Positions 13,500 to 17,933 of a stretch of DNA of 64,000 bases are shown here, in pieces; the first letter of the stretch is position 1; the number at the start of each line of letters is the position of its first letter. Source of the DNA: Arabidopsis thaliana (Eukaryota > Streptophyta > Magnoliopsida > Brassicales > Brassicaceae); contig NC_003070.9 in assembly GCF_000001735.4 (NCBI RefSeq), positions 29,063,971 through 29,127,970 of the forward strand, given 5' to 3'. A program made the position numbers and the translations under genes. Under the pieces are notes generated by a model. That model had not been told where the DNA came from. It saw only the letters and a program-made list of their open reading frames with translations, and searched no databases.

Positions 13500-14600
13500 A
13501 GGTAAAAAGTGTATTAAAAAAAATATATCTGTCTTGGTAAAAAGTTGGTAGGACCACTATTACTCAAGTGTTACTATTGAAAAATTTGACTTCATGATTT
13601 ATAATTTTATATGAATGATTCGATACCAATTGGATAAAAACAAAAGAAAAGAGAAAATATGGGCAATGGAAAATTGGAAGTCCAAGATGATACCATCGTT
13701 TTCATTTGGACTTAAAATGTCATTGTTCAGCTTTTTTGAAAGAAAAAAACAAACATTCATGTACGTGTGTGTTTGAAGCTTAGTGTTATTTTCACTTACA
13801 ACTAGATTTTATTAGAGTATTTTATGAGATTAGAGAAAATAAAATGTTGTTTTAAAAATAATAGGCATTTTGGTTATATCATTTGATTATTTACGTATTT
13901 CGCTAATTTTAAATTTTATTAACCGTGGACAAACTAAATTTATTTAGAAAACAGCTTGGTTTTTTCTTGAATATTTCAATGTAAAGTGTTATCGCATTAA
14001 GATGTTAAAAGAACATTCATGGAATCATGACATATATATGGAGAAATCTATGCCGACTTTAAATAATGAGTACACGCAATCATGTGTAGATTTCAAAATG
14101 ATAACTCAAAACCAAAAGGTGATTTTTATAGTATGAGCAATAGTAACGCACATATACTATATCTTACCTAGAATCCGAAAGTATATCACCCCACCATATA
14201 AGTTTCTGTAGGTAACTAACTTATGAGGCGTGTAAGCTATATGTTCTTCTCGAAATGAAATATTTTGATTACTTTGCCAACTAAACTCATTTAAACATAA
14301 ATGACATACACAAACTTGTATTGGCTTGATTCGTGGGAAACCAAATATCCTTTAAGGACTTACGAGAAGATTTGTATTCAGACAAGTCATCATTCAAAGG
14401 AAATAGTCTCCAAATATAAAGGGAATTATATTCATAAAAATAGAATCTATATATACATTGTTGCAGTCATTTTGTGAAATAAATCCTGGAGTTGGAATTT
14501 ATTTACAATGGCTACCATTGGCTTTTAATTATTGTTTTTTTAGCAATAAATTGATTAACAAATAAAAAAACATTCGAAATATATTCCAATCCCATATATC
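13500..14600. other. AAP3 upstream region
   Basis: AT-rich spacer with no open frame of interest; the proximal part is presumably the AAP3 promoter. Confidence 0.4.
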
Positions 14601-14612
14601 ACGCAGATTTTT

Positions 14613-14829
14613 CCAAAATTTGAAATAGATTTCGACAACTATTTAAAACAAAAAATGTTTGACAACCCAAAAGACAATTGCAATCCCTTAAAATGAGCGA
14701 AACGCAACTAAATATATTTCTTATCTATTCACTAAATCTTATGTCTCCAAAATTTGAACTACATTTCGACAACTATTTAAAACAAAATTTTGTTTGACAA
14801 ACTAAAACACAATTGCAATCCCGTAAAAT
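14613..14829. repeat. Imperfect direct repeat, two units of about 82 bases
   Basis: Unit 1 is 14613-14694 and unit 2 is 14747-14829. Both read CCAAAATTTGAA, then TTTCGACAACTATTTAAAAC, then GTTTGACAA and ACAATTGCAATCCC, differing at roughly 10-12 positions. The spacer is 52 bases. The repeat lies just upstream of the Helitron-like sequence and may be part of that element. Confidence 0.8.
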
Positions 14830-14839
14830 ATTTATTTTA

Positions 14840-15042
14840 ATTATAAATTTAAATTAGCGGGGTACCGCGGTTTATTTTTACAGGACGAGTTTGGTGGAAC
14901 GGGTTTAGAAGGACGTTACTTAATAACAATTATAAACTATAAAATAAAAATATTTTATAGATAGACATAATTTGTAAAATTTTATATATACTAATTTAAA
15001 AAAATAAATTGTCTCCGCGGTGTACCGCGGGTTAAAATCTAG
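14840..15042 (+). mobile_element. Helitron 3' end (non-autonomous, rolling-circle element)
   Basis: The right end is clear: a GC-rich hairpin with 7-bp stems CCGCGGT and ACCGCGG (15015-15030), an 8-base AT-rich stretch, then CTAG (15039-15042) followed by T. That is the Helitron terminus and its A^T insertion preference. The inner part contains GGACGAGTTTGGTGGAACGG (14883-14902) and a second GC-rich near-palindrome (GCGGGGTACCGCGG, about 14859), both typical from memory of Arabidopsis ATREP/HELITRONY families. The left end, which should begin with TC, cannot be fixed by eye; the element may extend left through the 82-base repeats. No transposase is encoded. Confidence 0.8.
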
Positions 15043-15882
15043 TTCATTCTTTACAATTCCAAAGTTTATAACCGCAAAAATGCATACAAAATGTACCAGT
15101 TTTTTTATTTTTTTTTCCATGTTTACATTGAAAGATAATTAAAAGTAATAACAAAGATCTAGGAGATCATGAAAAAGAATATGGTTCTTTGGTTAAGATC
15201 ATCCACTTGATTTAAGCGCACACAATACACACACAGCCATCCTCAATGTCGATTAACGAATTAAAAGAATGAATGAGAAACGCCTTTCATCATAGCAACT
15301 GCACTTTCTTCAACTTGATCCCTTATTAAGTGTTATCTTCATTATTATTTTTATTATCTTTGTAAGAGTATACATCGCCATGAGTACTATATCCTCCTAA
15401 CACTTACATTCTCCCTTTTCACTTTTCAGACGCCGCGATTTATCGCATTCGAATTTAGAGAAAGAGGAGCATCGGATTCGTTGCTTACTATTATCAGTTA
15501 GGTTTCTATTTAGATAATGTACTGTAATTAGTAGTATTTAAATAAAAGTTAAGATCTTACAGAAATATCTGGTTTGGCACTTCCAAGATAACATAAAGAA
15601 AAGGAATCTGTATTCTCGCTAAGTATTAAATTCTAATTATACTAAACACGAAATAGTTTTTACATGGAACAAATGAACTTCTCCCATCATAGAATTCATG
15701 ACAATTAGAAAACTTAAAATTTTCAAGCTGAATAATGCTATATATATAGTGACGTGGTTTTAATCCGACTTCAAATATGATTTAACATTTTCATCAACTG
15801 TTTAAATTGATAAATCTTATTAACATGTATTATTAATGGATACAAGAAAGAAGTACATATTGGTCAAATTAAATATCTAATC

Positions 15883-15913: not shown

Positions 15914-16894
15914 ATAGTCTCATGTATATACTTTTTGGTTTCACTTTTTAGTTCAAGAACATTATGTAATGTCTTTAAAATATATAAAGATGAGTCGATG
16001 ACGCTTAGTTTCTTGAATTTTGACATCTTTTAAGCAAGGTTTGGCGACCAGTTGACTTAAGACAACTATCTTGTATGAAATATATTCTTATTTAGAGAAA
16101 AATAATAATCGTAACTACTATAAGAATCTTTTTTGGTTGTAAACTTGTAGCTTTTCGTAATTAATTGACCAACGCACTCCGTGACTACAAATATCTAAAG
16201 ACGAGTTATAATCGATCCTCCTCAACATTATATAACATCTATATCTTCTTATACATGGTAAATCATAAAATTTGGCCCACTATATATAGATCGTATTTAT
16301 CAATTGTAATGATCATTGAATTTTCTTAGCATTACACTTTTTAAAAAGTTTTAGTTTGAATTAGTAGCCGAGCCATGGAGAAAGTTGTTTATTAAAAAAA
16401 AAAAAAAAGGTGTTGCAATGTCGTTACAGCTGAAATGTTTGAACGTTAGGTAGCATATGCGATACTTGAATTTATCATATTTCATATCTAACTGCACACA
16501 AACAAAAGCGTTTCTTTGACTCGATTACTCGAATATAATGTATTATTTGTGCTTTGCAATCGACTGACACTTGACTGAATAAACTGTTTCTTTTGAAAAA
16601 AAAATTCCACAATAATTTTGTGATTAGCAACAAACAAGTAATGATTTTGATGATTCTAGTCAAAAAAATGTTAACAACCAAAAATGTTAAAATAGGAAGA
16701 AATATTTATACTTATAGCTAGTTTTCCCTCACAATTTCATTCTTCAACATTCTTTTATATTTGTTACATTTACTAATCGATCACATCCGTATAGTACTAA
16801 CAAAGATGTTTTTATTTCCCATTTAGAAGTAGATCAGAGATGTTTTGACTTAGACCACAAACAGTAAACGTGATTTCATTTCCTATTTAACGGG

Positions 16895-16909
16895 ATGCAT
16901 GCATGCATG
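16895..16909. promoter_or_regulatory. Tandem RY motif upstream of the IDA-like gene
   Basis: ATGCATGCATGCATG, overlapping CATGCA motifs on both strands, 132 bases upstream of the ATG at 17041. RY motifs are bound by B3 factors of the ABI3/FUS3/LEC2 group; a role here is inference. Confidence 0.35.
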
Positions 16910-17040
16910 GTTGGACTTGGACCATTGACAATCATAATATCCATATATATCTGATGTATCATTCTCAATGTTACTGTATAAGTCGATTTAAAACACTTAT
17001 TTAACCCATAATAACTCATATTTTCACTAAAAAAAGAGAG

Positions 17041-17370
17041 ATGAACAAGGCCGAGATGTTGGTAACCACATGGACATTTTGGTTATTAATAATGTCTTGT
17101 GGATTATTGACTTGTCTAACATCTGCAATGCCAACCAAATCTTTGTCTTCCAAACTCTATGAATCAAGCTTACTCATAAAAGTAAAGTCGATACCGCAGA
17201 GAGAATCGGTCTCACCAATAGCCTTTGGAACCTTGCCAAAGTCTAAGTCTCCGCGTCCGCCTTCTACTCCATCCAGGTCACATAATCGACGAATATCACC
17301 TTCAGAATCTCCTGCTTCGCTGCTAGATTACAACAATTTTGTCTCATCAGAACCAATTTATCAATATTGA
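17041..17370 (+). CDS. Putative secreted peptide precursor, IDA-like (IDL)
   Basis: Intronless frame of 109 residues. Residues 7-29 form a hydrophobic signal peptide (MLVTTWTFWLLIMSCG then LLTCLTSA). A variable, basic, Ser-rich middle follows, then FGTLPK (62-67) and PRPPSTPSRSHN (71-82). From memory, the IDA family has the same order, FGYLPKG followed by PIPPSAPSKRHN; 8 of the 12 residues of the peptide core are identical. IDA-type peptides are hydroxylated and cleaved, then sensed by HAESA-type receptor kinases in organ abscission, root emergence and stress. Unusual points: Ser replaces Arg just before the terminal His-Asn, and a 27-residue tail follows the core. No gene name is recalled; it may be unannotated or lineage-specific. 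Confidence 0.72.
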   Translation: MNKAEMLVTTWTFWLLIMSCGLLTCLTSAMPTKSLSSKLYESSLLIKVKSIPQRESVSPIAFGTLPKSKSPRPPSTPSRSHNRRISPSESPASLLDYNNFVSSEPIYQY

Positions 17371-17933
17371 GACAACAAGCTCTGTAATAGCATTTTATTA
17401 AATAGATGGTCTCCGTGATTGTCAAAATCTATCATTCTAAGGCGGTTTGGGTTGGTTTTTGTTTTACATGTGTTATGTTCATTAGAAATTTGAGAAACGA
17501 AATATTTTAGTTGCATTTTTTAGTTGAAATAAAACAGATAATTAATGCTTGTTTCATATCGTTTCATAACAAGCATGTCCCATCAGCATAATCTCACATG
17601 CCTAATCAAATTTTAATTCATCCCAGAAACTATCAACATTCTATAGTTGATTCATAGAACAATTAACCAAGGTTGTTCCAAATCTTTGATCATCCTTTTA
17701 AGGCGTTGGAGGTGGTTGGTCTGCACTTCAACCACCACAACGACATCCATAGCTCAGAACTCTGTTCACATATATACACTTGTAACGAAACAACACTTTC
17801 TATTGATAAGTGGTATTTTCATCTACACATCATCTCTATCGGACTGAGTACATTTTGCCTGACCCGACTGATGAATTTTTATCAACAATATGTACAATAC
17901 ACGAGGGTAAAAAAAACGTATCCAGAAACACTA
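17371..17933. other. Convergent spacer between the IDA-like gene and TAM
   Basis: 3' sequences of both genes. Short frames at 17647-17957 (plus) and 17836 (minus) overlap the cyclin 3' end and look like chance. Confidence 0.45.

Follow-up and report, generated by a model that had tools for sequence, protein, structure and literature searches.

The window analysed is a stretch of 64,000 nucleotides of Arabidopsis thaliana chromosome 1, spanning C1:29063971-29127970, and positions without a chromosome name are counted from its first letter. It harbours a 109-codon frame in the spacer between two genes on the minus strand. We take the left neighbour, at ~11.2-13.1 kb, to be the amino-acid permease gene AAP3 (At1g77380), and the right neighbour, at ~17.9-20.2 kb, is presumably the cyclin A gene CYCA1;2/TAM (At1g77390); both were recognised from translated frames and synteny. 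The frame, at Chr1:29081011-29081340 of the genome, is present as described in the initial annotation and has no internal stops. It is single-copy according to a genome search. Its predicted elements are listed in Table 1.

Table 1. Features at and around the candidate frame, with positions in the window.
Feature	Position	Strand	Basis or remark
1-kb upstream region; six TTGACY W-boxes, counting both strands	16041..17040	+	TATA-like sites at 16944 and 16998
Candidate IDA-like prepropeptide frame, 109 codons, intronless	17041..17370 (stop included)	+	ATG-to-stop open reading frame
Probable signal peptide, residues 1-29	17041..17127	+	Hydrophobicity; possible cleavage between TSA and MP, by eye
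FGTLPK, residues 62-67, counterpart of IDA FGYLPK	17224..17241	+	Possible subtilase site after Lys
Candidate 12-residue core PRPPSTPSRSHN, residues 71-82	17251..17286	+	Profile match, identities
C-terminal tail, 27 residues, starting Arg-Arg	17287..17367	+	Translation
AATAAA, possible polyadenylation signal	17528..17533	+	Sequence

The spacer had also been said to carry transposon-like DNA, and a dispersed repeat is indeed present at ~14445-15043, ~2 kb from the frame and without overlap. This repeat is abundant: at least 45 matches were listed, counting the one to itself (of 602 candidates, 40 were scored), and the roughly 600-base matches listed share 84-95% identity with it. Its 3′ end is CTAG, preceded by a GC-rich hairpin, which suggests that it is probably a non-autonomous Helitron. 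A transposon origin of the frame is ruled out by the place of the repeat and by the genome search, in which the segment 16601-17800 matched itself alone.

Papers are cited here by PMC number. The nine known members of the family, IDA and IDL1-8 (PMC4526919), were recovered from the same genome with lengths that agree with the table of that paper, and the IDA sequence used as query is 100% identical to the genomic one. All nine lie at places other than the frame, which rules out that it is one of them; IDL5 is located at C1:28914677 on the opposite strand, 166 kb off. A retained whole-genome-duplicate copy was also rejected. In the duplicated AAP5-CYCA1;1 segment, located via synteny, tblastn found no recognisable copy of the frame, the best matches having E values of at least 0.55 and none keeping the core. 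No relatives were found in viral and prokaryote contigs, as expected. Pfam gave two matches to the frame, both under the cut-off, the PDB search gave one match (E 0.43), and Rfam gave none at gathering score within the window. With the whole candidate protein or the core as tblastn query, at E up to 10, no known member was found. The IDA query did not find the candidate either, which is weak evidence since four of the eight IDLs escape the same query. This query gave a weak match at C3:4265335-4265541 (minus strand, E 1.05), where no known member was recovered.

A literature search of article texts found no mention of AT1G77379 or of AT1G77381 to AT1G77389; nor did the literature search find the core letters, or IDL9 together with abscission. 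The accessible parts of PMC8847575, PMC13056886 and PMC13091385 name no further Arabidopsis IDL. The frame may already have a gene model, or be among the unannotated secreted ORFs listed by Lease and Walker, which number 33,809 as quoted in PMC11756074.

The predicted precursor shows the order of elements that the initial annotation had compared with IDA: a hydrophobic N-terminus, a variable part, FGTLPK, the core PRPPSTPSRSHN and the 27-residue tail. IDA/IDL genes are intronless and encode precursors of less than 110 amino acids (PMC4526919), and the candidate, with 109 amino acids in one open frame, is within this size rule. The step from TSA to MP was judged by eye to be a fair -3/-1 cleavage site. 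The N-terminal hydrophobicity of the candidate is 2.37, against 2.74-3.14 in the five known members for which it was computed, and at least the same value is found in 4888 of the 97,186 simulated ORFs described below. The family possesses a conserved Arg after the signal peptide (PMC4526919), which is absent in the candidate, where MPTKSLSSKL comes after the presumed cut. In IDA, LPKG is cleaved between Lys and Gly (PMC6681299). The gap from LPK to the core is one residue longer in the candidate than in IDA. The long tail is present as annotated, and only its length is unusual: in known members the core is followed by no more than 13 residues (PMC4526919), and the 27 residues of the candidate are twice that maximum.

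The candidate core is identical to that of IDA at eight of twelve positions, as had been noted from the letters, and IDL1-8 share between six and nine of the twelve with IDA. The replacement that had been pointed out at position 10 is also found, with Ser in the place of Arg67 of IDA. This position is Arg or Lys in all nine known Arabidopsis members, so the Ser of the candidate is unlike all of them; likewise, position 6 is Thr in the candidate, and Ala or Gly in all nine. In place of the family block S(G,A,V)PS the candidate has STPS, which keeps the S-x-PS frame with Thr at the variable place, and in place of (R/K)(R/K)HN it has RSHN, in which HN is kept and the second basic residue is changed to Ser. 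The C-terminal Asn, the central Pro and the upstream LPK are all kept.

Similar to the candidate, IDA (At1g68765) and IDL1 have intronless short precursors with residues to be trimmed after Asn, and IDA shares with it both FGxLPK and PxPPSxPSxxHN. The candidate differs from this pair by Ser instead of Arg at position 10, by Arg and Thr at positions 2 and 6, respectively, by a tail of 27 instead of 8 residues and the lack of an Arg behind the signal peptide. IDL2-IDL5, the type with Lys at position 10, each share eight of twelve core residues with the candidate, as well as Arg at position 9 and an LP[KR] flank. However, position 4 is Pro in the candidate and Ala, Thr or His in these four, the Lys at position 10 is lacking, and the start of the tail differs from DIG, EIG or VYG. 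Varying spacing and core ends are also seen in IDL6, IDL7 and IDL8, which are linked to stress in the literature; IDL7 shares Arg-Pro before the SxPS block, and IDL8 a Ser/Pro-rich tail. The HN pair, kept in the candidate, is absent in IDL6 (IN), IDL7 (TN) and IDL8 (ET), so departures from the consensus occur in accepted members; these three keep the basic position 10. The genomic IDL8 core, encoded in a frame of 95 amino acids on the minus strand, is PIPPSGPSRKETPP, without an HN pair. PMC5853212, by contrast, ascribes a C-terminal Asn to the motif in every IDL member.

A profile was built from the nine known core regions with the candidate left out. The candidate scored 12.0 bits (best domain; E 7e-6 for one sequence), a value that already includes a HMMER correction for biased composition of -7.3 bits. 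Known members, each left out of its own profile, scored 20.9-57.1 bits, so the candidate lies below their range and has diverged further than each of the nine. As a null we used a simulated 120-Mb genome from a fourth-order Markov model trained on real DNA, with 97,186 ORFs of at least 60 amino acids; it is lenient, since the composition of real coding and antisense DNA is absent from it. None of these ORFs reached 12 bits with the nine-core profile, and one reached 11. Among those with an N-terminus as hydrophobic as that of the candidate, none reached 8 bits and one reached 6. Shuffling the part after the signal peptide never reproduced the score of the candidate (0 of 5000 shuffles, 4072 of which were given a score). 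The likeness to an IDA-type prepropeptide thus exceeds the simulated null, as the initial annotation would lead one to expect. The margin is nonetheless fragile and hangs on single family members. With leave-one-out profiles the candidate scored 6.4-14.4 bits, and between 0 and 29 of the 97,186 null ORFs scored as high: 29 without IDL7 (candidate 6.4 bits), 10 without IDA (8.2 bits), five without IDL4 (9.4 bits), two without IDL6 (10.4 bits) and none with the other five profiles. When the hydrophobic N-terminus was required as well, one null ORF remained without IDL7 and none with the other eight profiles. In real DNA, 284 ORFs of at least 60 amino acids in 208 kb, a small set largely chosen for containing known members, scores above 5.5 bits were confined to ten, namely the candidate and the nine known members.

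These scores against the null, taken with the hydrophobic N-terminus, make it unlikely that the resemblance arose by chance. Several other observations nevertheless fit a frame opened by chance in non-coding DNA, untranslated or translated as noise, with a Pro/Ser-rich stretch that happens to look like the IDA core. Simulation predicts 0.15-0.20 such frames in a 4.8-kb spacer, so length by itself carries no significance. Codon preference is weak. In favour of the peptide reading, the codon score falls within the range seen in six known IDA/IDL genes and is equalled or exceeded by 64 of 4181 null frames (counting nested starts), but of the other five frames of this segment two, both on the reverse strand, out-score it (0.077 and 0.051 against 0.002). 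The size of the composition correction, the missing family features and the null ORFs that match the candidate under some leave-one-out profiles point the same way. On the other side stand the empty upper end of the lenient null and the two separated motifs, FGxLPK and PxPPSxPSxxHN, which follow a hydrophobic N-terminus in the expected order. GC content also rises across the frame, to 0.40 from 0.31 upstream and 0.30 downstream, and six known genes show a like rise (0.38-0.47 inside against 0.27-0.33 upstream). With both sides weighed, we regard a chance frame as rather unlikely, though a serious contender.

A secreted precursor of another SGP-rich family (SCOOP, CLE, PIP or a family restricted to Brassicaceae), with an IDA-like core acquired by convergence, would account for the Ser/Pro-rich C-terminal half and for a core away from the C-terminal end, as in PROSCOOPs (PMC6382344). 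CLE peptides resemble the candidate in being dodecamers with a central Pro and an HN ending. However, the candidate lacks both the Gly at core position 6 and the Pro at position 9 of CLEs. Compared with seven CLE cores, the candidate core is identical at two to five of twelve positions, against eight for IDA, and its BLOSUM62 scores are 5-21, against 19-48 with the nine IDA/IDL cores; by these measures it is nearer to IDA/IDL than to the seven CLE cores. PIP/PIPL and SCOOP precursors are secreted and S/P-rich, as is predicted for the candidate, and PIPs share SxPS. Yet GxGH, the mark of PIP/PIPL at the C-terminal end, is absent in the candidate, its long tail after the core is unlike PIPs, and FGxLPK is an IDA-type flank (SCOOP, PIP and CLE were compared at the level of motifs). 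Convergence from such a family is improbable.

Least credible of the alternatives is a decaying IDL duplicate, once functional and now free of selection with its frame still open: the lost basic position 10 and post-signal Arg, the very long tail and the lack of a recognisable sister copy in the duplicated region would suit it, but the frame is fully open and keeps the upstream LPK as well as the C-terminal Asn and central Pro, whose counterparts Asn69 and Hyp64 in IDA are critical for HAESA binding (PMC4848090).

The 1 kb upstream of the frame is the densest 1-kb stretch of W-boxes in the 164 kb scanned. Six TTGACY were reached by three of 2000 dinucleotide shuffles and by two of 623 overlapping real 1-kb windows from these 164 kb, both of them over this same upstream region; this excess is a lead and not a proof, since the test was chosen after inspection of the sequence. 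Known members have between one and five TTGACY upstream (1 kb for eight of them, 435 bases for IDL8). The bare TTGAC gives a weaker picture, with seven sites, a number reached by 27 of 2000 shuffles and nine of 623 windows, and IDL3 has eight. Five W-boxes also occur in a 1-kb segment that takes in the upstream DNA of IDL3. The W-box-rich region suggests induction by stress.

Because several of the features that define the family were found to differ, we do not class the candidate as an IDA/IDL member; it is a plausible, unconfirmed, divergent IDA-like peptide gene. If expressed, it would most likely work like a member. On balance we lean towards the view that the frame encodes a secreted prepropeptide, IDA-like but diverged, which may be induced by stress and would make weaker contact with SERK. 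From its elements we infer the following course. The signal peptide would direct the precursor into the secretory route, and a subtilase would cut after the Lys of FGTLPK. The tail would be taken off after Asn, perhaps by a cut behind Arg-Arg followed by trimming of both Arg, and the Pro at position 7, within S-T-P-S, would be hydroxylated. A peptide of 12-15 residues could then occupy the groove of a HAE/HSL-type receptor. Binding of the co-receptor should be weaker, since the basic residue that touches SERK at position 10 is not kept.

Published work on IDA bears on the removal of the tail and on receptor binding. The initial annotation had named the tail, with the C-terminal trimming that it would call for, among the features that set the candidate apart. 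A tail to be removed is present, but the need to remove it is not special, as IDA itself requires it (PMC4848090, PMC5853212). HAESA depends on Asn69 and fails to bind an IDA peptide with an SFVN extension (PMC4848090), so trimming after Asn is a rule of the family and not a peculiarity of the candidate; it has been argued for IDL6 and IDL7 also (PMC5853212). Regarding position 10, the last four residues of IDA contact SERK1 in the HAESA-IDA-SERK1 structure, the affinity of a K66A/R67A peptide is about tenfold lower, and overexpression of this variant in plants gave a hint of a weak dominant-negative effect (PMC4848090). A K66A/R67A/H68A peptide was weakened with HSL1 too, and the ida mutant was not rescued by it (PMC8847575).

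By analogy with these variants, the kept receptor anchor (central Pro and C-terminal Asn) together with the lost SERK-contacting basic residue could make the product a WRKY-induced, naturally occurring weak agonist or antagonist of IDA signalling, which would occupy HAE/HSL2, recruit the co-receptor poorly and damp cell separation under stress; we consider this a long shot.

If expressed, the frame would add a further member or near-member to a hormone family of nine genes in the plant that has been studied best. It would also carry a natural change at a shared co-receptor contact residue, so that a role of position 10 in setting agonist strength becomes directly testable. Should the frame be a product of chance, it shows to what extent resemblance in the core alone can lead one astray.

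Among angiosperms, Arg, Lys and a monocot Gln are described as the types found at position 10, and Ser is absent among the types given in the accessible parts of PMC4627355 and PMC6681299. One sentence in these texts assigns a conserved Ser to 'positions 5 and 10'; going by the printed IDA core, positions 5 and 8 must be meant.
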